Origin: Ornithinimicrobium sufpigmenti
GTDB taxonomy: Bacteria; Actinomycetota; Actinomycetes; Actinomycetales; Dermatophilaceae
Length of the DNA: 64,000 bases
Reading direction: 5' to 3'
Assembly: GCF_004322775.1 (NCBI RefSeq)
Contig: NZ_CP036403.1
Location: 3,658,001-3,722,000 of the forward strand
In this document: piece after piece, positions 11,268-29,787 of the stretch
Layout: each line of letters starts with the position of its first letter
How positions within the stretch are numbered: position 1 is the first letter of the stretch
Notes under the pieces: generated by a model
What the model was told of the DNA's origin: nothing
The model's input: only the letters and a program-made list of their open reading frames with translations
Databases searched by the model: none
Program-made: the position numbers and the translations under genes

Positions 11268-11987
11268 TCACTGCTGGTGGGTATGGGCGACGTGCAGTTC
11301 TCGAACGCTGACGTGCGCCGGCAGTTCCGCGGCCCACCCGACGACGTCCGCGACGTCCTCGGGTTCGAGCACGTGCGCGCGTCTGGCCAGGTACTCACTG
11401 CGCAGTTGATCAGAGCTCGTCGAGTCCACCAGGTTGGTCCGGATCATCCCTGGCGCCACCTCCACCACGCGCACCCCCTGCGGGGCGGCTTCGAGCCGCA
11501 GCGCCGCACACAGCGAGTGGACTGCGGCCTTGCTCGCGCAGTAGGCCGCGTGATTCTCGAAGACCTGACGTGCCCCGAGCGAGGAGATCACCAGGATGGT
11601 CCCCCGCTGCCGCTGGTACATGGACGGCAGCACGAGTCTCGTCAAACCGACGACCGCGAGCAGGTTTACCTCTATGGTGGAGCGCCACTCGTCCAAGGGT
11701 TGATCAACGATGCCGCCCAGTGACATCACCCCCGCGTTGTGCACCAGCGTCTCCACCGGGCCGAAGCGCGCCGTAGCCGCCTCGAGGGCACTAGAGACCG
11801 CGTCTGTGTCCTTGATGTCCACGGCCGCGAGCTCCGCCCTCTCCAGACCAAGCGCGGCCATCGGTTCCTTGCGGCGCGACAGCAACAGGAGCGGATGTCC
11901 CGAAGCATGAAGGCGTGTGGCCACCGCCGCGCCCACCCCGGCGCTCGCGCCTGTGACGACGGCGAGGCCTCGGCTGCTTGCACTCAT
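11268..11987 (-). CDS. Short-chain dehydrogenase/reductase
   Basis: 239 residues from ATG 11987; the frame is open further upstream but would run into the VOC gene. The NAD(P) motif TGASAGVG lies at about residues 12-19, NAGVM after it, then the catalytic serine in VISSLGA and the YCASK pair. It is the last gene of the ABC-importer operon, after the VOC gene, so it probably oxidises or reduces an intermediate from the imported compound. Confidence 0.85.
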   Translation of the reverse strand: MSASSRGLAVVTGASAGVGAAVATRLHASGHPLLLLSRRKEPMAALGLERAELAAVDIKDTDAVSSALEAATARFGPVETLVHNAGVMSLGGIVDQPLDEWRSTIEVNLLAVVGLTRLVLPSMYQRQRGTILVISSLGARQVFENHAAYCASKAAVHSLCAALRLEAAPQGVRVVEVAPGMIRTNLVDSTSSDQLRSEYLARRAHVLEPEDVADVVGWAAELPAHVSVRELHVAHTHQQ

Positions 11988-11992
11988 GCTGC

Positions 11993-12523
11993 TCACTCCC
12001 ACTCCGTTGTCGGATCGACCGGTGAGTAGAGCCGGCGCGAGGTGTCCCTCTCGTAGGCCTTGCCGTGGGGGTAGCTGATCAACTCCAGGGGTTGACCCCA
12101 CGGCGTGAGGAAGAAGCAGAACTCCGCGTTGGTCCCGGTTTCCGGCCCGGGCAGCGGGAGCGAGCCGCCCAATACTTCTACGTCCTGGGCGCGTAGGTAG
12201 GCCACCGCCTTCGCCATGTCCTCGACATACAGCGCGATGTGTGCGCTTCCCCAGTCGCTGGTCTTCGGCATGCGCCGCACCTGATCAGGCGACTCGAACT
12301 GCAGCAGCTCCAGGTTGAGGTTGCGGGTACGCAGCATGCGAATCTGCACCGTGCGCGCCCGCGGGTGACGGTCGAAGTAGACCGTCTGGCTGTCACCGTC
12401 GAGGTCCTCGTAGGGCCCGTGGGCGTAGAAGTCCTCGAAGCCGAGCAGACCTGTGAAGAACTGCACCGCCTGCTCCATGTCGGGCACGGTTAACCCGATG
12501 TGATCGATTCCCCGGCTGATCAC
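11993..12523 (-). CDS. VOC family protein (glyoxalase/extradiol dioxygenase superfamily)
   Basis: 176 residues. Two beta-alpha-beta-beta-beta modules are visible, with possible metal ligands in GIDHIGLTVPD, in GSAHIALYVED and the glutamate in GQPLELISYP. The superfamily covers extradiol dioxygenases, isomerases and glyoxalases. It overlaps the ABC ATPase gene by 4 bases, so it belongs to that operon and probably acts on the imported compound or its product. Reaction not known. Confidence 0.8.
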   Translation of the reverse strand: MISRGIDHIGLTVPDMEQAVQFFTGLLGFEDFYAHGPYEDLDGDSQTVYFDRHPRARTVQIRMLRTRNLNLELLQFESPDQVRRMPKTSDWGSAHIALYVEDMAKAVAYLRAQDVEVLGGSLPLPGPETGTNAEFCFFLTPWGQPLELISYPHGKAYERDTSRRLYSPVDPTTEWE

Positions 12524-16654: not shown

Positions 16655-17650
16655 ATGCGCGTAGGACTCACCGGGGTGGGCCGGGTTGGCGAGGTCCACC
16701 TCAAGAATCTGTGCGGAAGCTCCGGAGTTTCAGAGGTGCTGGTGCATGATGCGCACCGGGCCCGGGCCGAGTCCGTGGCGGAGGAGCACGGAGCCCGCGT
16801 CGTCACCTCCTTCGACGACCTGCTCTGTAGTGTTGACGCGCTGGTGGTCGCCTCACCGACGGAGACACACGCTGACATCCTCGATCGGGCGATCGCGCGC
16901 GGCGTCCCTACGTTCTGCGAAAAGCCCGTATCGACCGAGCTCGTTGAGATCGCGGACTTGGCCGTCACGGCAGCCCAGTCTCAGACAGACGTGCAGGTGG
17001 GTTTCCACTACCGGTTCGACCCGGCGCTCCGAACTCTGGCCGCAGGTCTGTCGACGACCGACGGGCCGCACCAGGTCCGCGTGCACAGCACCACCGAGTT
17101 CGCTCCCTCCCAGGAGTACCTGGCCGGCGCCGGCGGCCTCATCCTGGACAAGCTGATCCACGAGCTCGACATGCTCCGGTGGCTGACCGGAGCAGAGGTC
17201 AGCCACGTCTCTGCGCTTGCGCTGTCCCCTGAGGCCCCAGCATCCGAGCCGATGACCGCATCGCTCACGCTGCAGCTCAACGATGGTGGGCTCGCCACCA
17301 TCTGGGGCGCGTACCGCTCCTCGGCGGGATTCGACCTGACCGTCGAGGTCGAAAACACTGGCGGCGTTCAGGTGATGGGGAGCCGCCGGCCGGCCACGGA
17401 GATGCCCACCCAGGTCGGCCCCAGCAAGATCACCGACTTCCGCGATCGCTTCGCGACGGCCTATGAGCTGGAGATGACGGCGTTCCTCGACCTGGCTCAA
17501 GGCACGGGTAAGAACCCAAGTGACCTCGACGAGGCCGTTCGAACCCACCAGCTCGTCGAGGCCGCTCGCACCGCTCTGCTGACGGGTACCGTAGTTGCCG
17601 TGGAGGACATATCCCCACGTCAGCAGAGCAAGGGAAAGACGAGAACATGA
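16655..17650 (+). CDS. Gfo/Idh/MocA family oxidoreductase
   Basis: 331 residues. The N-terminal Rossmann motif GLTGVGRVGEVH is at residues 4-15; FCEKPVS at about residue 90 carries the cofactor-contacting lysine; DKLIHELDML supplies the usual catalytic His/Asp region. The family oxidises or reduces sugars and inositols with NAD(P). It is divergent from the ABC importer and overlaps the following IclR gene by 4 bases, so the import operon and this pair look like one regulated unit for a sugar- or polyol-like compound. Confidence 0.87.
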   Translation: MRVGLTGVGRVGEVHLKNLCGSSGVSEVLVHDAHRARAESVAEEHGARVVTSFDDLLCSVDALVVASPTETHADILDRAIARGVPTFCEKPVSTELVEIADLAVTAAQSQTDVQVGFHYRFDPALRTLAAGLSTTDGPHQVRVHSTTEFAPSQEYLAGAGGLILDKLIHELDMLRWLTGAEVSHVSALALSPEAPASEPMTASLTLQLNDGGLATIWGAYRSSAGFDLTVEVENTGGVQVMGSRRPATEMPTQVGPSKITDFRDRFATAYELEMTAFLDLAQGTGKNPSDLDEAVRTHQLVEAARTALLTGTVVAVEDISPRQQSKGKTRT

Positions 17651-18468
17651 CTGGTGATGCCGCCCAGGTGACCCCCGCGCGGCGTCAGCAGGTGAAATCG
17701 CTGTCCCGTAGCACCGAGATCCTGCGCGTCCTTGCCGACCGCCCGATGCGACCTGCCGAGTTGTCCCGTGAGCTTGGCCAGCCCTGGGCGACCATCTACC
17801 GCTCGATTCGCGTGCTGGCCCAGGAGGGGGTGCTGCAGCGCGACCTCGACACGGGTGAGTACTCCATCGGACCGACACTGTGGAGCTTGGCCACCACCTA
17901 CCTGCGGGATCACGCGGTCATGCGTGTCGGGCTCGGCCATCTGGATCACGCCATCGTGCGCATACCCGGGCTCGTGAAGGTCACTGAGAGGCACGACGCC
18001 GAAGCAGTCACCCTGTTCGCCGAGCAGAATCCGCAGGCCTCGCCGGTGACGCGGATCCGGGAGCAATACCGCCTCCCCCTCCACGTTGCCTCCTTCGGAC
18101 ACCTCCTCCTCGCCTTCGCCGGCGCCGACGTCATCGAGGCCTATCTGCAGCGGCCGCTCGTGGCGTACAGCCAGCGTACGGTGACCGACCCCAGTAAGCT
18201 GGCCGCCAGGCTCCGCGAGATCAAAGACGTGGGGTACGCAGCTTCACTGGGCGAGCTGCAGCACGAGAACGGGTCGATCTCGGTCCCCATCAGAGCACGG
18301 GACGGTGAGGTGATCGCCGCGTTGACGGCCGTCCTACCGATCCCTCTGCTGAAGGACGCAGATGTATTTTCCGAGCAGCTCGACTACCTCACCGACACTG
18401 CACGCAACATCTCTGAAGCCCTGGGTTGCCTCAACTACGCCCAGTTCAGCAGCAAGCCCCCGGCATGA
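17647..18468 (+). CDS. IclR family transcriptional regulator
   Basis: 273 residues. Helix-turn-helix region SLSRSTEILRVLADRPMRPAELSRELGQPWATIYRSIRVLAQEGVL (about 19-65), then an IclR effector domain. The gene overlaps the Gfo/Idh gene (ATGA), so it is made with that enzyme and probably controls the divergent ABC operon. It converges with the ferredoxin reductase gene only 3 bases away. Confidence 0.85.
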   Translation: MTGDAAQVTPARRQQVKSLSRSTEILRVLADRPMRPAELSRELGQPWATIYRSIRVLAQEGVLQRDLDTGEYSIGPTLWSLATTYLRDHAVMRVGLGHLDHAIVRIPGLVKVTERHDAEAVTLFAEQNPQASPVTRIREQYRLPLHVASFGHLLLAFAGADVIEAYLQRPLVAYSQRTVTDPSKLAARLREIKDVGYAASLGELQHENGSISVPIRARDGEVIAALTAVLPIPLLKDADVFSEQLDYLTDTARNISEALGCLNYAQFSSKPPA

Positions 18469-18471
18469 GCC

Positions 18472-19719
18472 TCATACCTCACTGACCGCAGGGATAGGCG
18501 CACTCACAGCTGCGGCGTCGATCAGGTCAACCACCTCATGCACGGGAAGATCCGCCTCCCAGGCACGGCGCAGCTTCGGCACCAGCTGGGGCCATCCGAA
18601 GACAGCGCACGCCGTGTGCCGACCGCCGCGTGAATAGAGCACGACGTCGCGTTCGCCACCGGGGGTCTGACGGCGCAGCACCTCCATGTCGTCGTCCGCC
18701 GCGCAGTGACCCACCATTTGGATCTTCATTCCGTGCTGGTCGGACCAGAAGTACGGCGCCTTGGTGTTCGCCTGCAGGTCCTGGGGGTTCAGTATGTTGT
18801 GGGCCGCCAACTGCGCCTGCTGGAAGGCATGCGTCCAATGCTCACTACGTCGGTGGACACCGTCGCGTGCGTCAAACCACCGGGCGACGTCACCGATGGC
18901 ATAGACATCCTGCACGCCTCTCGCACGGCAGAACTCATCGGTGACCACCCCGTCATCGAGCATGATGCCCGAGGACTCGAGCCACTCGGTGTTGGGCACG
19001 CAGCCGATCCCGGCCACCACCGTGCCCGCTGCGAGCGAGCGCCCGTCGGCGAGCTGGACCACACTGGCGGCACCGACGTGCTTGATGCCCACCACGGCGG
19101 CCCCGGCGATGACCTCGACGCCGTTCTCGGCATGCAGCCGAGCGATCAACGAGCCCGCGGTCGGGCCGAGAACCCGGGAGAACGGCGCCGGGAGAGCCTC
19201 AACGATGGTGCACCGACGGCCCAGCTCCGTGGCCGACGCCGCAACCTCGGCACCGATGAAACCTCCTCCGATGACCACAAGGGGATCTTCAGAGGCGAGC
19301 AACCGCTTGCGCAGGCTCAACGCGTCATCCTGCGTGCGGATTGTCCGCACGACGGCTGGATCGGCCCGCCATGGCAGGGGGCGTGGTCGCACACCGGTGG
19401 CGATGACCAACCGGTCATAACCCAGGCGCGACCCGTCGCCCAGCTCGATTTGACGCTGGGTCACGTCCACACCACGAGCGGCAACGCCCAGGCGTAGCTC
19501 GATCCCCGCGTCCTCCAGCTCCGCCGGCTCGGCCAGACGAATCTCCTCGGCCGACCACGCCCCTGTCAGGAGCTGCTTCGACAGTGGCGGCTTGTCGTAC
19601 GGGAACTGCGCCTCGGCCCCGACCAGGACAAGCTGGCCGTCATAGCCGGCGGACCGGAGCGCCTGGGCGCACCGGACCCCTGCGACCGAGGACCCGACGA
19701 TGACCACGCACTCAGGCAT
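18472..19719 (-). CDS. Ferredoxin reductase of the ring-hydroxylating dioxygenase
   Basis: 415 residues. FAD motif VGSSVAGVRCAQALRSAGYDGQLVLVGAE at the N-terminus, PYDKPPLSKQLL next, the NAD-binding VIGGGFIGAEVA at about 150, and DVYAIGDVARW near 270: the pattern of FAD/NAD reductases such as BphA4 that pass electrons from NADH to a ferredoxin. It is the last gene of the aromatic operon whose first gene encodes a ferredoxin. It overlaps the small gene before it by 8 bases. Confidence 0.87.
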   Translation of the reverse strand: MPECVVIVGSSVAGVRCAQALRSAGYDGQLVLVGAEAQFPYDKPPLSKQLLTGAWSAEEIRLAEPAELEDAGIELRLGVAARGVDVTQRQIELGDGSRLGYDRLVIATGVRPRPLPWRADPAVVRTIRTQDDALSLRKRLLASEDPLVVIGGGFIGAEVAASATELGRRCTIVEALPAPFSRVLGPTAGSLIARLHAENGVEVIAGAAVVGIKHVGAASVVQLADGRSLAAGTVVAGIGCVPNTEWLESSGIMLDDGVVTDEFCRARGVQDVYAIGDVARWFDARDGVHRRSEHWTHAFQQAQLAAHNILNPQDLQANTKAPYFWSDQHGMKIQMVGHCAADDDMEVLRRQTPGGERDVVLYSRGGRHTACAVFGWPQLVPKLRRAWEADLPVHEVVDLIDAAAVSAPIPAVSEV

Positions 19720-19948
19720 CGTGTTCTCCGTCCAGGGCGTTGCCCGGGTCAGTCGCGAAGGCGACGACCTGGGCGAGCTGGTCCTCGGTCAGCATGGTGA
19801 GCGCTTCGAGCACCGTCGCGTCGATGCTGCCGACCGCTTCGACGCGCCCGGCGCTGATCTGCAGCCGCACGCCCCGGCCGTGCCGCACCTTGGTCAGCGT
19901 CACTGAGGCGAACTCGTTGTGGATACGCCACCGCTCCGAGTCCTCCAT
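19712..19948 (-). CDS. Small conserved protein in dioxygenase cluster
   Basis: 78 residues, acidic at the C-terminus, no cysteines, no membrane segment and no motif I can name. Its stop overlaps the reductase gene and its start touches the beta-subunit stop, so it is translated as part of the dioxygenase operon. A role in the hydroxylase system is likely from position only. Confidence 0.6.
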   Translation of the reverse strand: MEDSERWRIHNEFASVTLTKVRHGRGVRLQISAGRVEAVGSIDATVLEALTMLTEDQLAQVVAFATDPGNALDGEHDA

Positions 19949-20454
19949 CAGAAGATCGACCCGAGCTGAGAGTCGGTCGGCACCTCGGTATCGAGGTAGA
20001 CGACCCGTTCCCGCAGGAGCAACCGTTCACCCTGCCGCACGATGCGGTCGACCCGGCGCGCGGAGGCTACCGACGGAGGATCAGGCAGCCGGGACCGGCT
20101 CACCAGAACGTTGGATGAAACCGTCCACGCCCGGCCCTCCACCTCGGTCTCCACCTGGACGTTGCTGACGAAGTGCCGCACGTATGCGGAGGGCCGCTCC
20201 GCCCAGGCGAAGTCGGAGTCAATGCGATGGAACCGCATCGAGAGAAAGCTCTTCGACTCGTTGGCGTACTCAAGGACCGGGTCATGCTGCGGCTGGCTGG
20301 GCTCTTCGCGGGCCACCGGCACCGGCAGGCGGTAGACGAACTCGTCATGCAGCAGGTCAAGCCACTCGCCCTGACGGTTGCTGTCGAGCAGGTGCGACTC
20401 CTGGTAGAGGAACTGCTCGATCTCGTACTGGATCCGGATGTCTTCGTCCTTCAT
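19948..20454 (-). CDS. Aromatic-ring-hydroxylating dioxygenase beta subunit
   Basis: 168 residues, the usual length. The start ATG 20454 overlaps the alpha-subunit stop. Family signs are QYEIEQFLYQESHLLDSNRQGEWLDLLHDEFVYRLPV at the N-terminus and the SNVLVSRSR and RQGERLLLRERVVYLD segments of the SnoaL-like fold. It is the structural partner of the alpha subunit in an alpha3beta3 oxygenase. The subunit looks intact although its partner gene is broken. Confidence 0.88.
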   Translation of the reverse strand: MKDEDIRIQYEIEQFLYQESHLLDSNRQGEWLDLLHDEFVYRLPVPVAREEPSQPQHDPVLEYANESKSFLSMRFHRIDSDFAWAERPSAYVRHFVSNVQVETEVEGRAWTVSSNVLVSRSRLPDPPSVASARRVDRIVRQGERLLLRERVVYLDTEVPTDSQLGSIF

Positions 20455-21401
20455 CACGCCTCCGTTCCCATCTGCTGCAGGTAGCGCCGGACCATGTTGC
20501 GCTGGTTGGCCTCGGTCAGGTCCTGGTGGACCACGTTGCCGGGGCCCTTCCACGGCGGCACCGTAGCGGTGGCCACACCCTCGCCGAGCTCGTAGTTGAA
20601 CGGGTCGGTGCCGGCCACCTGGTCCCCGAGCGCAGCGTCGATGCGGCGGAAGTTCTCCAGGTCGTCAGCCTCGAAGTAGGAGGCCGCACCGTGCTGCCGC
20701 GTGCTGTACAGATAGGACTTGGCCTTCCACTCGTCGCTGGCGTCCTTGGGCACCAACGACCAGTACGTCACCCGGTGGTGGTGCGCGTCGATCGGGGTGA
20801 CCGAACGCAGCTGGGTGAAGGCGGTCGACCCCTTGGCGTCCTCGCCGAAGTACAGGGGGGCCGTGGTGATGAGCAGCAGGTTGGGATAGACAAGACCGTG
20901 GATCACGGACGTCCGCTGACGGAACTTGACCTGCTCCTGCTCCAGGGTCCGGCCGGCTTCCGCCAGGAGCGCCTCCTCATACCCGAACGGGATGTGCGGA
21001 GTGCCCTCGTCGACGACGTACTGGGCGCGGATCGAGTGCCCGGTCGGGACGTTCACCACGAAGCCTTCCACCGCGCCGGCCTGCTCCCCCATGACCCCGA
21101 GGTCGAACATCGTGCGGTGAGCGTTCTGCAGGTGATATCCGTCACCGGAGAAGTTCTCGGCGTGGATCTTCCAGTTGCCCCGGATGTCGACCTGGTGGGC
21201 GCCGCCGTAGACCTCCATCCCTCCGGGGAACAGCTCGAAGAAGGCCTTGAGGTACCAGGCGTAGTCACCGAGAAAGTCCATGAGCGGCGGAGCGTCCGGG
21301 TTCCACGTGGCGAACACCAATCCGTAAGCAACCTCCACGCGCGCCTGGCGCAGCCCCAGCTTCTTAGGGTCAAACTCCGGGCCGTAGAGCGCTCGCCGTC
21401 C
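20454..21401 (-). pseudogene. Ring-hydroxylating dioxygenase alpha subunit, catalytic (C-terminal) part, cut off by IS3
   Basis: About 315 codons continue the alpha subunit after the insertion: LYGPEFDPKKLGL, then LVFATWNPDAPPL and the mononuclear-iron motif HAENFSGDGYHLQNAH with its two histidines. With the N-terminal piece at 22916-23255 the restored protein would be about 427 residues, normal for alpha subunits. In the present sequence it has no own start codon near its beginning; the first in-frame GTG lies about 20 codons in. Without the Rieske domain it could not accept electrons. Confidence 0.88.
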
Positions 21402-21434
21402 CGGAAGGTGTCAAGTCGGGTGAGACAGTTTCCG

Positions 21435-22837
21435 TCAGGCGGTCTGTATGAGGGACTCCTGTGAGGGCTGGTTGATCCACGCGGCCTGGGGCAGCTTGGG
21501 CGCCTGGGGTCGGCGGTGGCCGAACCGCTCGGGGTGGGCGGCGTAGGCAGCGTCCAGGGTGGACTGGCGTTGGGCGCGGACCTGACCGACGGTGCCGTAG
21601 TGGACGCTGGCGGGAGTGTGCAGCCCGATGCCGGAGTGGCGGTGCTCGTGGTTGTAGTAGGCGAAGAACTGCTCGGCGAACGCGCCGGCGTCGGCCAGGG
21701 ACCCGAAACGTTCGGGGAAGACCGGGGCGTACTTCAACGTCTTGAACGCGGCCTCGCTGTACGGGTTGTCGTTCGAGACGTGCGGGCGGGAGTGGGACCG
21801 GGCCACGCCCAGGTCCACCAGCAGCTGCGCGACCGGTTTGGAGGTCATCGAGGTGCCCCGGTCGGCGTGCACCGCGTCCGGGACACCGTGCACGCCCATG
21901 GCCTGCTCGAGCATGTTCTTGGCGATGTCGGCGTCCTCGCGGGCCGCGATGGTCCAGGCCACGACGAACCGGGAGAAGATGTCGAGCACGACGTACAGGT
22001 CGTAGTACACGCCCCGCTCCGGTCCTCGCAGCTTCGTGATGTCCCAGCTCCAAACCTGTCCAGGGCCGGTTGCCACCAGCTCGGGCCTGGTCCTGGCTGG
22101 GTGGGTGGCCTGCCGGCGTCGTTCGCCGGCCATGTCGTGCTCGCGCAGGATGCGGTGCATCGTGGACTGCGAGCACAGGTAGGTGCCCTCGTCCAGCAGC
22201 GTGGCCCAGGCCTGGGCGACCGACTTGTCCGCGAACTCCTGGCTGGTCAGCACCGCCAGCACGTGCGCCCGTTCAGCCTCGGTGAGCTTGTTCGCCGGGG
22301 CCGGGCGCGGTGTCGTCGGGCGTGGCCGGGGCGGGTTCTTGGCCCGGTAGTGACCCGCGCGGGAGCGGCCCAGCAGGGCGCACGCAGCTGCGGTGCCGAC
22401 CTGCTCAGCCAGGTCGTCGACGGCCGGGTCGATCACCGCCGCGACCGCGGCGGCTTGTCCGCGCTCTCGGAGAGCGTCTCCAAGAGCGCGTGTGCTTTTC
22501 CCACCAGATCCAGGGCAGCTTTCGTGCGGGCGAGCTCGGCCTCGGCCTTCTCCGCCCGTGCCCGCAGCGCCTGCAGCTCCCGTTCCTGGCGGTCTCGTCG
22601 CTTGCCACCCAACCCGGCCTGCGCACCGGCCTGCGCTGCCTTGCGCCACTCGATGATGTGCGAGCTGTACAACCCTTCCCGGCGCAAGATCGCGCCCCGC
22701 TCACCACGTTCCGCGGCGTCGTACTCGGCAAGGATCGCGGCCTTGAACTCGGCGGTGAACCTCCGCCGCTTCGGCTGGTCAGCACGAGGGGACATGACCC
22801 CATCATCGGTGCCGACATCAGCAGTCGTCATCGTCAT
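21435..22837 (-). CDS. IS3-family transposase OrfAB (made by -1 frameshift)
   Basis: The OrfB part has an HTH_21-like region, then the rve/DDE integrase core: WSWDITKL (first Asp), VHADRGTSM (second Asp) and NPYSEAAFKTLK (Glu plus the usual Lys), ending in FFAYYNHEHRHSGIGLHTP. All catalytic residues are present. OrfB has no convincing start of its own; it joins OrfA at GGAAAAGC (22494-22501), where -1 slippage gives GKSTRALGDALRERG. Looks potentially active. Confidence 0.85.
22433..22837 (-). CDS. IS3-family OrfA (HTH protein)
   Basis: 134 residues. An N-terminal HTH_Tnp_1 domain (KRRRFTAEFKAAILAEYDAAERGERGAILRREGLYSSHIIEWRK) is followed by a leucine-zipper-like helix rich in Ala/Glu/Lys. 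It binds the element ends and usually limits transposition when made alone. Confidence 0.85.
   Translation of the reverse strand: MTMTTADVGTDDGVMSPRADQPKRRRFTAEFKAAILAEYDAAERGERGAILRREGLYSSHIIEWRKAAQAGAQAGLGGKRRDRQERELQALRARAEKAEAELARTKAALDLVGKAHALLETLSESADKPPRSRR
22461..22502 (-). promoter_or_regulatory. Programmed -1 frameshift signal of the IS3 element
   Basis: On the coding strand GGGAAAAGC (22494-22502) offers an A-AAA-G slip site. Starting 4 bases later, GCGCTCT (22483-22489) can pair with AGAGCGC (22461-22467). Slip site plus downstream stem is the usual IS3 arrangement for making OrfAB. Confidence 0.65.
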
Positions 22838-22915
22838 CTCAGTATTGATCCGATCTCGCCCCGTGCAGTGCGAAGGTCAACAGTGCTGGTGTCTCACCCC
22901 ATCCTGACGCACAGG

Positions 22916-23255
22916 GTCCGGGCACGCCTCGGAGCTGGCCGTCGGGGCTGAAAACCCACCCGTGGTAGCCGCACCTGAAGGTTGTGGTGTTGCCGTAGGA
23001 GAGCTTGCACAGCTCGGTGCCACGGTGGGTGCACGAGTTGAGCATGACGTGCACGTCGCCGTCCTCCGTGCGGGACATGATGACCGGGTTGGCGCCCATC
23101 CGGCGGGTGACGTAGTCACCGGCCGCCGGGATCTCGGTCTCGTGACCGACGAAGAGCCAGTTCTGGCCGAAGATCTTGTTGTACTCCTGGTGGAGCGCGT
23201 CCTCGTCCCGGTAATACGAGCGTGGGATGTTCACTGAGTCAGGCACCGTGGTCAC
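22916..23255 (-). pseudogene. Ring-hydroxylating dioxygenase alpha subunit, Rieske (N-terminal) part, cut off by IS3
   Basis: The first 113 codons of the alpha subunit, starting at ATG 23255. The Rieske [2Fe-2S] site is complete: C75-T-H77 and C95-x2-H98. After GVPG the frame runs into the insertion sequence and ends shortly after, giving about 138 residues. The start overlaps the upstream dihydrodiol dehydrogenase stop by 4 bases. The fragment alone might fold as a Rieske domain but cannot oxygenate. Confidence 0.9.
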
Positions 23256-24094
23256 GATGGGATCCCTTCATTCCTGTGTGCTTCGTGTGAGGACGACGTC
23301 GTCGTCGTCCGGACTGAGAGCCCACCGTCGGGCCTCAGTACCTCGCCCGTCATACCCCGCGCCTGAGGCGAGCTCAGGAAGAGGTACAGGTCGGCGAGTT
23401 CGTCGGCAGTCATGACGACGCCGAGCGGGTTGAAGTCAGCGATGACGCGTTCGATGTCATTGGGGTCGTCGAAGATCTCGCGGCTGGAGCCGTCCGGCAC
23501 GGTGGCTCGCAGTCGGGTGACGACGCCGCCCGGGGCTACGGCGTTAACCCGCACGCGTGGAGCCAGCTCGGCCGCCAGGTGGCGCACCACACCCAGCGCA
23601 CCATGCTTCGACGCTGAGTAGATGGCTCCGGAGCCGTTACCGGACACGACGTATGAGGCGTCGGACAGGGTGAACGTCATGCACCCGGAGCTCTCCTGGA
23701 GAGCCCCGACGGCGGCACGGGCACCCAACAGATACCCGATGACGTTCACCCCGAGCACAGCATGAGCGATCTCGGCGATCTCGGCACCGGAGGTGTCACG
23801 GAAGGAGATCCCTCCGTCGTGGATGCCGGCGTTGCCGACGAAGTGATCGAGCCGACCCGCGATGTCGAGCACGGCCTGGACCGCACGTGCGTTGTCCTCG
23901 AACGTGGTGACATCGCCGCCGACCCAGATGACGTCCGCAGGCAAGGAACCCTGCGGCGGGTCCCGGTCGAGGACGACGACGTGGTCACCGAGGCGGGCGT
24001 GGGCCCGGGCCACGGCGGCCCCAATGCCCGAGCACCCGCCGGTGACCAGCACGCCACGACCGGAAGAGTTGAGAGCTCGATCAGTACGCTTCAT
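23252..24094 (-). CDS. cis-Dihydrodiol dehydrogenase (SDR family)
   Basis: 280 residues from ATG 24094. NAD motif TGGCSGIG (about 18-25), DRDPP after the second strand for NAD binding, NAGI, a serine in TLSDASYVVSGNGSG, and the YSASK catalytic pair. The NGSGAIYSASKHG stretch resembles BphB-type cis-2,3-dihydrodiol dehydrogenases. It would turn the dioxygenase product into a catechol using NAD. It lies between the extradiol dioxygenase and hydroxylase alpha genes, which supports this role. Confidence 0.82.
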   Translation of the reverse strand: MKRTDRALNSSGRGVLVTGGCSGIGAAVARAHARLGDHVVVLDRDPPQGSLPADVIWVGGDVTTFEDNARAVQAVLDIAGRLDHFVGNAGIHDGGISFRDTSGAEIAEIAHAVLGVNVIGYLLGARAAVGALQESSGCMTFTLSDASYVVSGNGSGAIYSASKHGALGVVRHLAAELAPRVRVNAVAPGGVVTRLRATVPDGSSREIFDDPNDIERVIADFNPLGVVMTADELADLYLFLSSPQARGMTGEVLRPDGGLSVRTTTTSSSHEAHRNEGIPS

Positions 24095-24110: not shown

Positions 24111-25028
24111 TCAGAACGGAGCCCGTGTCCACAGGCCCGGGTCGGTCGGCCCGTGCATCTCCTTGAGGATGACCTCGTCGAAGGCGTTGGACGTGCCCCA
24201 CTGGTCGGTGTCCTCATCGCTGGTCGAGTAGACCCGGGGAGTCCAGCCGTGGGACTCGTCGATCTCGGCGAGCGCGGTGGTGTACTCCATGACGTAACCG
24301 GTTTGGGGATCCTGGAAGTAGGAGAAGGTGTTGTCCCCCGCGCCATGGCGACCCGGTCCCCAGAGCACCTTGTGCCCGAGTCGCATCATGGACCCCGTGG
24401 CGCGCATGAACTCATCGAGGCCGCGCACCTCGAATGAGATGTGGTTCAGGGAGGTGTTCTCCGACCGCGCAAACGCCACGATGTGGTGGATTGAGCTGGA
24501 GCGCATAAAGCAGAAGAAGTTCTCCACCCAGTCCGAGATCTTGAAGCCCAGAGCCTCTTGGTAGAAGGTGTGCGTCTTGGTCAGGTCCGGGGTGTTGAAG
24601 ACCACATGGCTAATCTTTTTCGGGCGGCGCTCGCCGGGCTCGACCTCGTAGAACGGTCGAAGCTCCAGGTCGGCTGAGATCTCAACCAGGCGACCGTCGC
24701 AGTCGAAGAACTGGAAGCCATAGCCGCCGCCACGGTCCTGACGTGGAGCGGGCTCCTGCACCATGGTCGCCAGTGGGTGCGCGGAGACCCGCTGAGCATA
24801 GGCGTCGACCTCCCCCGCGGTTTCCACCGCGAGGCTGACAAAGTCGATGCTGGAGTGCTCGGCGCGGCGCAGCCGCAGAACATAGTTTTCCGGTGAGCCT
24901 GCACCTAGGTAGAGACGGTCATCGTCACTGTCAAGCTCTTCCAGCGCCCAGTGGCGTGAGTAGAACTCCCGAGCGGCGTTGAGCTCCGGCACTGCGATTC
25001 CGACACTGCGAACGTGCGTGATAGTCAT
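24111..25028 (-). CDS. Extradiol ring-cleavage dioxygenase (VOC, two-domain type I)
   Basis: 305 residues in two repeated VOC modules, like BphC. The C-terminal module has the iron ligands H141 (KISHVVFNTPD), H196 (LNHISFEV) and E248 (GYVMEYT), so the 2-His-1-carboxylate site is complete. It should cleave the catechol made by the dehydrogenase next to the hydroxyl groups. Substrate could be mono- or polycyclic; the neighbouring hydratase-aldolase favours a fused-ring or side-chain aromatic. Confidence 0.85.
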   Translation of the reverse strand: MTITHVRSVGIAVPELNAAREFYSRHWALEELDSDDDRLYLGAGSPENYVLRLRRAEHSSIDFVSLAVETAGEVDAYAQRVSAHPLATMVQEPAPRQDRGGGYGFQFFDCDGRLVEISADLELRPFYEVEPGERRPKKISHVVFNTPDLTKTHTFYQEALGFKISDWVENFFCFMRSSSIHHIVAFARSENTSLNHISFEVRGLDEFMRATGSMMRLGHKVLWGPGRHGAGDNTFSYFQDPQTGYVMEYTTALAEIDESHGWTPRVYSTSDEDTDQWGTSNAFDEVILKEMHGPTDPGLWTRAPF

Positions 25029-25037
25029 ACATCCTCC

Positions 25038-26495
25038 TCAGACGTAGGGCGTAGCGAGGTACTTCGTCTCCATGAATTCCAGAATTCCGTCGTGCGATCC
25101 TTCGCGTCCCAGACCGCTGTGCTTCGATCCGCCGAAGGGTGCGCCCGGATCCGAAACCAGGCCGCGGTTTAGACCCACCATCCCGGCCTCCAGCCGACGG
25201 GAGACCACCAGCCCGGACGTGAGGCCTTGGGTGTAGACGTAGGCAACGAGTCCGGCGTCGGTGTTGTTGGCCCAGGCCAACGCCTCATCGACGTTGTCGA
25301 AACGGATGATGGGGGCGACCGGTCCGAAGATCTCGGTCTGGGCGATGGTGCTGTCGGGCCGGACGTTCTCGAGCACGGTGGGCGTATAGAAGAAGCCTTC
25401 GCCGTCGGGGATGGTTCCGCCGGTGCGAATCGTGGCGCCTTCTGCCACAGCCTGGTCGACCAGCTCGGCGACGCGATCGCGCTCGGTCCGGGAGACCATC
25501 GCCCCGATATCGGTGCCGTCCTTCAGCCCGGGGCCGACCTTCAGTTGCTCAACACGGCGGGTGATGCGCTCGACGAACTCGTCGGCGACGCCGCTCTGGA
25601 CGAAGATGCGGTTGGCCGCCGTGCAGGCGGACCCCCCGTTGCGGAACTTGGCCAGCATGAACCCCTCCACGGCCTCGTCCAGGTCGGCGTCGTCGAGGAC
25701 GATGAACGGGGCGTTCCCACCGAGCTCCATGGAGGGCTTGGCGACATTCCCGGCCGCCTCGCGGAGCAGGACCATGCCGACCTCGGTCGACCCGGTGAAG
25801 GACACGGCCCGCACCCGCCTGTCGGCCAGCATGGCAGCGACCGCAGGCCCTGCGGGAGAGGTCACGATGACGTTGACCACCCCGTCCGGGACGCCTGCCT
25901 CCGCGAGCAGCTCGGCGACGAACAGCGCGGCCAGGGGCGTCTCGGTCGCGGGCTTGAGGATGACCGAGCACCCGGCCGCGAGAGCTGGCGCGATCTTGCG
26001 CGTCGCCATCGCTGCGGGGAAGTTCCACGGCGTGATGAGCAGCGCGACACCGATCGGCTCGTGGGAGACCGCGATCCAGTTATGGCCCGAGGGTGAGGGG
26101 CGCAGGTCGCCCCGCACCCGCACGGCCTCCTCGGCGAACCAGCGGAAGAACTCAGCCGCGTATGCGGCCTCGCCGCGAGCGTCGGAGAGTGCCTTGCCGT
26201 TTTCCATGCTGATGAGCTCGGCGAGCTTTTCCTGGTCACGGACCATCAGGTTGTAGGCGCGGGAAAGGATCTCCGAGCGGGCCCGAGACGGCAGCGCTGC
26301 CCAGTCGCTCTGTGCCCGGGCTGCCGTGTCGACGCTGGCCCGGCACTGGTCGATCGAGGCGAGGCTGACCTCGGCGATCGGAACCTCACGGCTGGGGTCG
26401 ATCACCGCGCGGGTGCCGCCCTCTCCCTCGACGTGGGCTCCGCCGATGATCGAGTGGTGGGTCGGGGTCGATGTGGCGGTTGCCATCTGGAACAT
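25038..26495 (-). CDS. NAD(P)-dependent aldehyde dehydrogenase
   Basis: 485 residues. The start overlaps the upstream stop (TGATG) and has GAAGGTG before it; a second ATG lies three codons on. Family motifs: LITPWNFPAAMATRKIAPALAAGC, SFTGSTEVG, MELGGNAPFIVLDDADLD with the catalytic Glu, and GGSACTAANRIFVQ with the catalytic Cys. Closest in style to succinate-semialdehyde or aromatic aldehyde dehydrogenases. After a hydratase-aldolase step it would oxidise the released aldehyde. Confidence 0.87.
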   Translation of the reverse strand: MFQMATATSTPTHHSIIGGAHVEGEGGTRAVIDPSREVPIAEVSLASIDQCRASVDTAARAQSDWAALPSRARSEILSRAYNLMVRDQEKLAELISMENGKALSDARGEAAYAAEFFRWFAEEAVRVRGDLRPSPSGHNWIAVSHEPIGVALLITPWNFPAAMATRKIAPALAAGCSVILKPATETPLAALFVAELLAEAGVPDGVVNVIVTSPAGPAVAAMLADRRVRAVSFTGSTEVGMVLLREAAGNVAKPSMELGGNAPFIVLDDADLDEAVEGFMLAKFRNGGSACTAANRIFVQSGVADEFVERITRRVEQLKVGPGLKDGTDIGAMVSRTERDRVAELVDQAVAEGATIRTGGTIPDGEGFFYTPTVLENVRPDSTIAQTEIFGPVAPIIRFDNVDEALAWANNTDAGLVAYVYTQGLTSGLVVSRRLEAGMVGLNRGLVSDPGAPFGGSKHSGLGREGSHDGILEFMETKYLATPYV

Positions 26496-27487
26496 CACAG
26501 ATTCACCTTCACTGCCGAGAGCGGGTCGATCCGCCGACCGAAATCGTTCTGCTCGGCGGCTTCGATGATCGCCGCGCCCAGGATGAGATCCTGCAGGGGC
26601 GATCCGATGGACTTGTACACGGTGCGGATGCCGCGGTCCGGGGTTGTGGTCCCGAACAGTGCGTGGCCGAGCATCTCGCCGCGGTTGCGGTCTAGCCCAA
26701 GCGCGATCGCCTCCAGCGCGTCCCCGGACTCGTCGAAGACCTCGTCGGTGTCGACCACGATCCGGTCAGCCGTGGTCAGGACCCTCCCGCCCAGCTCGCG
26801 CTGGTTCGGCAACGTGGAGCCGATGGACGCGATCACGGGGACCGAAGCGACGTCGGCCTCGTCGATCACGATGCGACCGCCGGAGTTGGTAGCCGAGTAC
26901 ACGAGGTCCGCGGACTGCACCGCGCCCGCGAGGGAAGCGTGGGCGACCACGTCGAGACCCGTCCGCTCCCGGGCACTGGCGACGAATGCCGCGCGGTTCT
27001 CCGCACTGCGGCTCGTCACCGTGACCGACTCGAGCGACAGCACCTCGTGGAGCGCCTCAAGGCCGGCCAGAGCCTCTGCACCTGAGCCGACGACGGCGAG
27101 CCGTACGGGGGCCCTGGTCCCGATGATCTGCTCGACCGCCACCGCAGCCGTGGCGGCGGTCCGCAAGGTGGTGACCAGTGCGGCGTCGATGATGCCGAGG
27201 GGGCGTCCCGTGCCGACGTCGAAGAGCTTGATGCAGTAGCGCACCGACTTGTCGGCGGTGAGGTGGAACTCCTTGTAGCCGAAGACCCCGGCGGAAGGCA
27301 CGGAGGCAGCCATGAGCCGCATCCAGCCACCAGGGATCGGAAGCGTGGCGCGGCGCAGTTCGACGTCGGGCTCAATCGCGGCGAGCGCAGCGACCCGGGC
27401 TGCCTTGATCGCCAACGGCCAGGAAACGTGCTGCGCGATGTCCTCGGAGGAGATGTGGAGCGGCTGGATGTCGGTGGCGGTGATCAT
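26495..27487 (-). CDS. Ornithine cyclodeaminase / mu-crystallin family protein
   Basis: 330 residues starting at ATG 27487, which overlaps the hydratase-aldolase stop. It has GYKEFHLTADKSVRYCIKLFDVGTGRPLGIIDAALVTTLRTAATAAVAVEQI and the NAD-binding LAVVGSGAEALAGLEAL, followed by VTVTSRSAENR. Members deaminate ornithine, reduce cyclic imines or act as alanine or ketimine reductases. Such a gene is not a standard part of aromatic degradation operons, so it may point to a nitrogen-containing substrate or intermediate. Confidence 0.83.
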   Translation of the reverse strand: MITATDIQPLHISSEDIAQHVSWPLAIKAARVAALAAIEPDVELRRATLPIPGGWMRLMAASVPSAGVFGYKEFHLTADKSVRYCIKLFDVGTGRPLGIIDAALVTTLRTAATAAVAVEQIIGTRAPVRLAVVGSGAEALAGLEALHEVLSLESVTVTSRSAENRAAFVASARERTGLDVVAHASLAGAVQSADLVYSATNSGGRIVIDEADVASVPVIASIGSTLPNQRELGGRVLTTADRIVVDTDEVFDESGDALEAIALGLDRNRGEMLGHALFGTTTPDRGIRTVYKSIGSPLQDLILGAAIIEAAEQNDFGRRIDPLSAVKVNL

Positions 27488-28506
27488 CAACGGATCCGTC
27501 CCGTGAAGAAGCTGGCATCCGGCTCGTCGGTCACGTCGAGCCCGGAGGCCACGGCCGCGTTCCGCAGCTGGACCATCTGCCGGTCGTGCAGGCGGGCGTG
27601 CGGGCTGCGGACGGGGCCTCCGTTGAAGCCCTGGAGCCAGCCCTGGTATTTCCACAGCAGCCGGTGCACGAAGGACGTGCCACCGTTCGCCTCGGCCATC
27701 AGGGAGCTGGTCGCCGACCGGGCGGGGTCGATCCGCCAGTACAACTCCATGGCCTCCGCCCGGGTGGCCTCGTCATGGGCCATCCGGTGGATGCGCGGGA
27801 TGGCATCGCCGAAGTACTCGTAGTTCGAGGTGCCCATCCACGGCATCCCGTAGGCCTGGATCCACGCGGGAGCGTTCACCTCTAGGGGATCACCCACCAG
27901 GACGCGGTCGCGCAGGCGCCAGAAGACCTCGGCCAGGCCAGCGACGCCGAAGTTGCCGATCTCATTCTTGATCGCCACAACGTTGGGGACCGTGTCGACG
28001 ATCTCCTCCAGCCAGTCGGGGGCGAACCCGGACGGGTGCAGCCGCGTGAAGTTCCACAGGTTCATCGCGAAGACGATCAGCCCCATGTCGCTGGCGTCGG
28101 CGATGGCTCGCGTGTAGTCGATCACCTCGGCAGCGTCCTGGGGGTAGAACGTGATCGGGTAGGAGGGCATCACCAGGTCGACGCCCTTGCTGGCAGCCAT
28201 CTGGGTGACCGCGACGTTGTCGGCCAGCGTGCCTGCCGACGCCTGGACGATCGTGACCATGTCATCGCCCGCCTCGTCCACGGAGATCTCGACGAAACGC
28301 TCGAACTCCTCGGGGGTCGTCCCGCACTCGGCCACGATGAGGAACCCGGTGAAGCCCAGTTCCCGCTCGCGCCGGATGTCGTGCCGGATCGCCTCCTCGT
28401 TCAGCGTGGACTGGTCCAGGGTGAACGAGGGCATGACACAACCGTTCACGCCTCGTAGGTTCTCCATCGCCCAAGCGCGTGCTTCGCCGGCTGCAAACTT
28501 CGCCAT
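27487..28506 (-). CDS. Dihydrodipicolinate synthase family protein, probable hydratase-aldolase
   Basis: 339 residues from ATG 28506. TIM-barrel class I aldolase signs: NGCVMPSFTLDQSTLNEEAIRHDIRRERELGFTGFLIVAECGTT, VMPSYPITFYP with a tyrosine, and VVAIKNEIGNFG with the Schiff-base lysine. The family includes trans-o-hydroxybenzylidenepyruvate hydratase-aldolase and PhdG/PhdJ of polycyclic aromatic degradation, which split the meta-cleavage product into an aromatic aldehyde and pyruvate. The adjacent extradiol and aldehyde dehydrogenase genes fit that role. Confidence 0.82.
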   Translation of the reverse strand: MAKFAAGEARAWAMENLRGVNGCVMPSFTLDQSTLNEEAIRHDIRRERELGFTGFLIVAECGTTPEEFERFVEISVDEAGDDMVTIVQASAGTLADNVAVTQMAASKGVDLVMPSYPITFYPQDAAEVIDYTRAIADASDMGLIVFAMNLWNFTRLHPSGFAPDWLEEIVDTVPNVVAIKNEIGNFGVAGLAEVFWRLRDRVLVGDPLEVNAPAWIQAYGMPWMGTSNYEYFGDAIPRIHRMAHDEATRAEAMELYWRIDPARSATSSLMAEANGGTSFVHRLLWKYQGWLQGFNGGPVRSPHARLHDRQMVQLRNAAVASGLDVTDEPDASFFTGRIR

Positions 28507-28998: not shown

Positions 28999-29787
28999 GT
29001 GACCGCGGAGTCAGGTCTACCCGGCCAGTCACTGACATCCGTCAGCCGGGCCCTGCGGCTGCTCCTCATGCTGCAGGCCGCGGACTCTGTCCGCGTCGTC
29101 GATGTGGCCCGCGAGCTCGGGGTGGCCGGTTCGACAGCCCACCGCCTCCTCACGTGTCTGCGCGAGGAGGGATTCCTGAGGCAGAAGACAGACTCGCGCC
29201 ACTACGTCGCCGGCCCGCAGTTGCTGGGTCTCGCGCGCCACTTCAGCGATCAGAACACCCTCGAGCACATTGCGCGGCCTCACCTGGAGCGGCTATGCAG
29301 GGACGTCAATGAGGCCGTCAACCTCCAGATCCTCGTCGGTGCCGACGTGCTGTGCATCGACTCGGTCGTTGAGGCCCGCCATGAGCTGAAGGTCCACCGC
29401 ATCACCGGCCAGCGGGCCCCCGCCATCGTCTCGGCCGCAGGCAAGGCGCTGCTCAGCCCGTTCTCACCGCACCAACTTGCCGAAATCCTTTCGACCAGTG
29501 AGGAGTGGGCCAACCGTTCGACGGCCCGCGGCCTGGCCGAGCTCAACCGTGAGTTGGCCCTCATCCGATCGCGCGGCTACGCCGTTAACATGGGTGACCG
29601 CGAGGCTGGCGTGCATGCCGTCGCGGTGCCGATCTTCGACGCCGAGCGCAACATGATCGCCGCGCTCTCCGTCGCAGCGCCCTCCGTGCGGCTCCCGGCC
29701 AATCGCGTATCCGGCCTTGTGAAACGGCTACGCAGCGCCAGCGCTGCCGTGACGGCCGACTACTGCTTCTCGCAGACGGGCGTCTGA
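28999..29787 (+). CDS. IclR family regulator of the aromatic operon
   Basis: 262 residues from GTG 28999, preceded by GGCGGAG. HTH region LTSVSRALRLLLMLQAADSVRVVDVARELGVAGSTAHRLLTCLREEGFL (about 10-58), then the effector domain (APAIVSAAGKALLSPFSPHQLAEIL, GVHAVAVPIFD). Divergent from the ferredoxin-led operon with 259 bp between, where two palindromic boxes lie. IclR proteins of aromatic pathways usually sense a substrate or pathway intermediate. Confidence 0.87.
   Translation: MTAESGLPGQSLTSVSRALRLLLMLQAADSVRVVDVARELGVAGSTAHRLLTCLREEGFLRQKTDSRHYVAGPQLLGLARHFSDQNTLEHIARPHLERLCRDVNEAVNLQILVGADVLCIDSVVEARHELKVHRITGQRAPAIVSAAGKALLSPFSPHQLAEILSTSEEWANRSTARGLAELNRELALIRSRGYAVNMGDREAGVHAVAVPIFDAERNMIAALSVAAPSVRLPANRVSGLVKRLRSASAAVTADYCFSQTGV

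Follow-up and report, generated by a model that had tools for sequence, protein, structure and literature searches.

The ring-hydroxylating dioxygenase alpha gene of Ornithinimicrobium sufpigmenti is split by an IS3-type element, and this is very probably a simple and recent insertional inactivation of the only alpha gene found in the genome, leaving a plain loss-of-function allele with no sign of decay so far. An apparently complete element landed between codons 112 and 113 and duplicated 3 bp of its target, an event of an ordinary kind. The gene lies on the reverse strand of the window, the stretch of 64,000 nucleotides of contig NZ_CP036403.1 (positions 3,658,001 to 3,722,000) that was analysed and to which all coordinates refer. 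As a clean and well-bounded example of the loss of a catabolic trait through one transposition it also carries a caution, since intact-looking neighbouring genes can mislead the prediction of aromatic degradation.

The interrupted alpha gene

The Rieske part and the catalytic part of the gene lie on either side of the element, and the features of the interrupted locus are as follows.

20454-21401, reverse strand: catalytic (C-terminal) half of alpha, covering codons 113-427 plus the stop codon (PF00848, E=8.8e-14)
21399-21401: left copy of the target-site duplication TCC (direct repeat)
21402-22916, reverse strand: IS3-type insertion sequence, 1,515 bp, in the same orientation as alpha (flank comparison of the four genome copies)
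21435-22496, reverse strand: orfB portion of the transposase fusion (rve; PF00665, E=1.9e-21 on 21435-22649)
22433-22837, reverse strand: orfA of the element, 134 aa (HTH_Tnp_1; PF01527, E=8.7e-6)
22496-22502, reverse strand: slippery heptamer GGGAAAA, split by the orfA frame as G GGA AAA, where a -1 shift would enter orfB (frame reading)
22917-22919: right copy of the target-site duplication TCC (direct repeat)
22920-23255, reverse strand: Rieske (N-terminal) half of alpha, covering codons 1-112 (PF00355, E=1.3e-17 on 22922-23255)

The preliminary description had read the two pieces as halves of one alpha gene, and the domain matches bear this out, with the Rieske and catalytic domains on the outside and the HTH_Tnp_1 and rve domains between them. 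The Rieske part is 67-76% and the catalytic part 69-72% identical to the homologues encoded at three loci from Nocardioides and relatives (L014-L016). The Rieske motif CxH...CxxH is present as C75-T-H77 and C95-G-Y-H98 and is invariant across 15 aligned rows, as are D199, H202, H207, D358 and D359 of the catalytic domain, which we take to be iron ligands. The reading frame breaks between codons 112 and 113 and alpha is not encoded in one continuous open reading frame; judged by its sequence, the interrupted gene is a broken member of the ring-hydroxylating dioxygenases and not a working one. The whole genome contains a single match to PF00848 (Ring_hydroxyl_A), the interrupted alpha itself, and therefore no paralogue stands in for it. 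A second, compensating alpha gene was also sought directly, and at E<=1e-40 the genome returned the two halves and nothing else.

Removal of the element together with one TCC restores a frame of 427 codons and a stop with no internal stop codon, just as the preliminary description had predicted. The alignment that was used to judge the join took in 14 of the 155 homologous proteins found, and the join region is free of gaps in all 14, reading GVPGRR in 12 of them and GVPGKR and GMPGRR in the other two. The best homologue (P0001), which is known as a protein only, is 94% identical to the restored alpha. Three of 19 genome loci with alpha homologues were inspected as DNA (70-73% identity, the remaining 16 being at <=40%), namely L014-L016, and all three are intact and read GVPGRR at the join position. 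The expectation that uninterrupted homologues would carry the predicted join was thus confirmed in both proteins and DNA, and a differing sequence at the join, which would have counted against it, was not encountered.

Decay of alpha since the insertion was considered and rejected, as the restored protein has one substitution at columns that are invariant in the other 14 rows, which lies inside the range of 0-7 seen when each of those rows is treated alike (0 and 2 in the two nearest).

In the proposed course of events the N-terminal product would be a 138-aa protein that contains the Rieske sequence and terminates within the element; the catalytic half would at best yield an N-truncated piece lacking the Rieske part. 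From these two predicted products the loss of the oxygenase follows as the expected outcome, and the enzyme is very likely inactivated. Polarity may in addition reduce the expression of the beta subunit and the reductase.

The inserted element

The element encodes a fused orfA-orfB transposase of 467 aa that would be produced via a -1 shift at the GGGAAAA heptamer. The two frames overlap in a -1 relation with the slippery site in the overlap, and the catalytic triad, whose residues were chosen by motif, consists of D266, D326 and E362 with the spacing D-59-D-35-E, which places the 35 residues between D and E that are expected of an IS3 transposase. The element thus looks like a complete member of the IS3 type. 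A similar inverted stretch (ending in GGGTGAGACA) occurs near both ends and starts several bases inside, and the terminal bases, 5'-CGG at one end and 5'-CCC at the other, do not pair as an inverted repeat. The tips CGGAA... and ...CAGGG are identical in 13 of 13 copies, yet they are not inverted repeats of one another.

Four full-length copies of the element are present in the genome, the other three of which differ from the copy in the alpha gene by 0, 1 and 1 base in 1,515. All four have a perfect 3-bp repeat on their flanks (TCC, TCC, CAC and GCG). For this base composition a single 3-mer match has a chance of 0.023, and no alternative placement of the two ends, each moved separately by as much as 3 bp, yields repeats at all four. 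Target-site duplications in the IS3 family range from about 3 to 5 bp, and the 3 bp seen at 4/4 of the own copies agree with this. The preliminary description had placed GTCC on both sides of the element, and these letters do stand at 21398-21401 and 22916-22919. A 4-bp duplication was nevertheless rejected, because the fourth base is mismatched in two of the three other own copies, which makes G22916 the last base of the element and TCC the duplication. The correction does not affect the product of excision, given that removal of 1,515 + 3 bp or of 1,514 + 4 bp leaves an identical sequence.

Elsewhere in the genus, full-length relatives of the element at 87-90% identity are present in 4 of 30 genomes and a partial copy at 74% in a fifth; the relatives at 87-90% have ends identical to those of the own copy. 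Across 13 copies (four own, seven from other genomes of the genus and two from Microbacterium plasmids, the relatives being 87-90% identical) the 3-bp repeat is present in nine and absent in four, a count that omits L005, a relative of 58 bp, and the partial relative L039 at 74%. The two plasmids were taken from 101 plasmid records with similarity to the element, and the 3-bp repeat is absent at both. On the Microbacterium sediminis plasmid NZ_CP038257.1 (L007) an 89% identical copy lies directly before genes annotated as Rieske-domain and dioxygenase beta genes, and the copy on the M. paraoxydans plasmid (L006) shares its left flank with this copy and has a different right flank. These flanks may reflect recombination at the element.

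The near identity of the copies (99.9-100%) and the undecayed alpha gene fit a recent insertion, with the qualification that the identity of the copies bears on when the element spread and does not by itself date this insertion, and that decay is judged from one allele. On these grounds the earlier suggestion that the loss is recent finds support. A candidate second strain with the same insertion was discarded; the catalytic fragment itself (P0023) is recorded on two contigs, but so is the neighbouring helicase P0121, and the two records probably represent one genome twice. The nearest named relative of this helicase comes from Ornithinimicrobium avium, with 65% identity.

The surrounding gene cluster

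The alpha gene is embedded in a set of putative catabolic genes, the main members of which are listed below with identities to the homologues at L014-L016.

17647-18468, forward strand: IclR-type regulator (PF01614, PF09339; 64-66% to L014/L016)
18472-19719, reverse strand: ferredoxin reductase, intact (PF07992, PF14759; 59-61% to L014/L016)
19712-19948, reverse strand: conserved 78-aa protein between beta and reductase (27 homologues besides its own entry)
19948-20457, reverse strand: dioxygenase beta subunit, intact, GTG at 20457 and ATG at 20454 (PF00866; 65-67% to L014-L016)
23252-24094, reverse strand: SDR dihydrodiol dehydrogenase-like protein, intact (PF13561; 50% to L014/L016)
24111-25028, reverse strand: extradiol dioxygenase-like VOC protein, intact (PF00903; 47% over residues 2-304 to L016)
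25038-26498, reverse strand: aldehyde dehydrogenase, intact (PF00171; 60-61% to L014/L016)
26495-27487, reverse strand: ornithine cyclodeaminase-family protein, intact, first ATG at 27487 (PF02423, searched on 26495-27493; 45-46% to L014/L016)
27487-28506, reverse strand: DHDPS-family (hydratase-aldolase-like) protein, intact, ATG at 28506 (PF00701, searched on 27487-28500; 68% to L014/L016)
28999-29787, forward strand: second IclR-type regulator (PF01614; 60% to L014/L016)

In a comparison of 16 neighbouring genes with the L014-L016 clusters, 13 align over almost their whole length at about 45-77% identity, and no extra frameshift was found in these 13. They comprise the genes for the beta subunit, the 78-aa protein, the reductase, two IclR regulators, the SDR, VOC, aldehyde dehydrogenase, ornithine cyclodeaminase-family and DHDPS-family proteins and three ABC-transporter genes, the VOC comparison resting on L016 as L014 ends inside the VOC gene. 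Three genes have no usable homologue in L014-L016, those at 11268-12041 (a partial match at 30%), 11993-12523 and 16655-17650 (both without a match), and are free of internal stops. The statement in the preliminary description that all other genes of the operon look intact is therefore substantiated for 13 genes, and for the other three it extends as far as the lack of internal stops.

The matches of the cluster enzymes to NCBIfam models all fall below the curated cut-offs, among the matches listed, and their nearest enzyme types are the Hca-, naphthalene-, biphenyl- and phthalate-type systems. None of 30 further genomes from the genus (one genome per species) gave an orthologue of alpha at E<=1e-60, and a broader search of 146 genomes including its own found matches in four others at 31-38% identity. 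The lack of an orthologue in the genus, taken together with the relatives in Nocardioides, suggests lateral acquisition, and this is probably a rare catabolic cluster that was acquired in this way.

Between 18472 and 28506 a ferredoxin reductase is present and no ferredoxin gene was recognised. The genome has five matches to PF00355, the best of which (L043) lies between open reading frames that look suf-type and were named by eye.

The 78-aa protein has no match in Pfam or NCBIfam and contains no cysteine. Its HNEFA...GRG.RL core is invariant in 25 aligned rows, made up of the protein itself and 24 of 28 listed relatives (a list that includes its own entry). At least nine relatives are encoded on contigs equal in length to those of alpha homologues, and the gene occupies the same place in the L014 and L016 clusters. 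The protein may be an accessory factor, so far unnamed, of this type of dioxygenase; its structure model is of low confidence (mean pLDDT 66.8).

Alternative explanations

The preliminary description had gone further and proposed that precise excision could switch the pathway back on. Such a reversible switch, in which the transposase and a host factor resembling IEE would excise the element precisely at a useful rate and restored cells would be selected on an aromatic substrate, is very improbable. Exact restorability holds for every insertion that duplicates its target, so that the in-frame restoration at alpha is to be expected and is no evidence of an adapted switch; it is a by-product of the insertion mechanism. 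IEE combines Prim-Pol and helicase parts, whereas the sole match to the Prim-Pol profile PF09250 in the genome is a 319-aa open reading frame without a fused helicase, a weak test given that the profile is a surrogate. Copy-out paste-in transposition leaves the donor copy in place. This term is applied to the pathway of the IS3-family member IS911 in excerpts of PMC9330008, in which IEE is described as acting in a transposase-dependent manner and as also causing larger deletions.

The precedent for a switch comes from the IEE-mediated excision of IS600, likewise of the IS3 family, from lacZ, which restores lactose use (PMC9397093, in excerpt); E. coli is also cited as a precedent in an excerpt of PMC8944449, and the frame and the target duplication at alpha would permit the same outcome. 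According to the excerpted text of PMC9397093, IEE promotes the excision of IS3-family members, IEE homologues occur across a broad range of species, and the excised subclones proliferate on lactose. Precise or simple excision is rare, however, and even with IEE the loss of IS600 from lacZ is described there as low-frequency, though selectable. Among the titles and abstract openings of the papers listed no IS-split dioxygenase and no precise excision in a catabolic gene were found, and a literature search for the biochemistry of IEE found nothing relevant among the papers listed. No excised allele, revertant or phase variation was observed for alpha, although in principle an infrequent precise deletion could bring about reversion. 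A form of bet-hedging, in which precise excision would be frequent enough to measure and some of the cells would regain the laterally acquired pathway when substrate is present, is more improbable still than the switch. If excision in culture proved true, it would extend the few known gene recoveries from IS3-family insertions to an actinomycete.

An assembly error, with the element misplaced here or carried by only part of the culture, has a slightly poorer claim than the switch. Four 1.5-kb copies that are 0-2 bases apart from each other can mislead short-read assembly, but the genome is in one contig of 4.17 Mb with a completeness of 99.98, and the 3-bp duplication at the site would be the trace of a transposition and not the product of a misjoin. 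Least plausible, on a par with bet-hedging, is that the split enzyme still works or that a promoter within the element drives expression of the catalytic part for another partner; the motif residues are kept in both pieces, but the break parts the Rieske from the catalytic region, the genome holds no further PF00848 protein to pair with, and a simple scan of 21300-23400 revealed no promoter-like or terminator-like site (by a sigma-70 consensus, which may not suit an actinomycete).

Comparison with known systems

Recent insertional inactivation of alpha, the preferred reading, involves an element that resembles the IS3 family in having orfA and orfB joined by a -1 slippery heptamer, HTH_Tnp_1 and rve domains with the D-35-E spacing and a 3-bp duplication. 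IS3-type elements usually have TG...CA tips and imperfect inverted-repeat termini. The TG...CA tips are absent from this element, and its non-inverted tips are unusual for the family.

A close parallel is IS600 in lacZ of E. coli O121:H19, where an IS3-family element likewise sits in a 3-nt target in a catabolic gene that is restored on clean removal (PMC9397093, in excerpt). That system has a demonstrated excision, a demonstrated enhancer gene and a demonstrated outgrowth, whereas the alpha insertion is known from sequence alone.

The naphthalene-, biphenyl- and phthalate-type dioxygenases (PDB 2b1x, 1eg9, 1uli and 9jp5) have the same combination of a Rieske and Ring_hydroxyl_A alpha subunit with a beta subunit; unlike in these systems, alpha is interrupted here and the cluster has no recognised ferredoxin gene of its own. 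A separate disruption of the same type of gene by a transposase gene has apparently occurred in Streptomyces sp. NPDC056291, whose alpha (P0116) is 66% identical over 44% of the query and continues as an integrase core (PF13683) from about residue 190. The clusters of Nocardioides sp. LHD-245 (L014) and of a Nocardioides MAG (L016) contain homologues of the same alpha, beta, 78-aa, reductase, IclR, SDR, DHDPS, ornithine cyclodeaminase and aldehyde dehydrogenase genes, but differ in that the blocks of genes are arranged in another order, the identities are about 45-77% and the alpha gene is whole.
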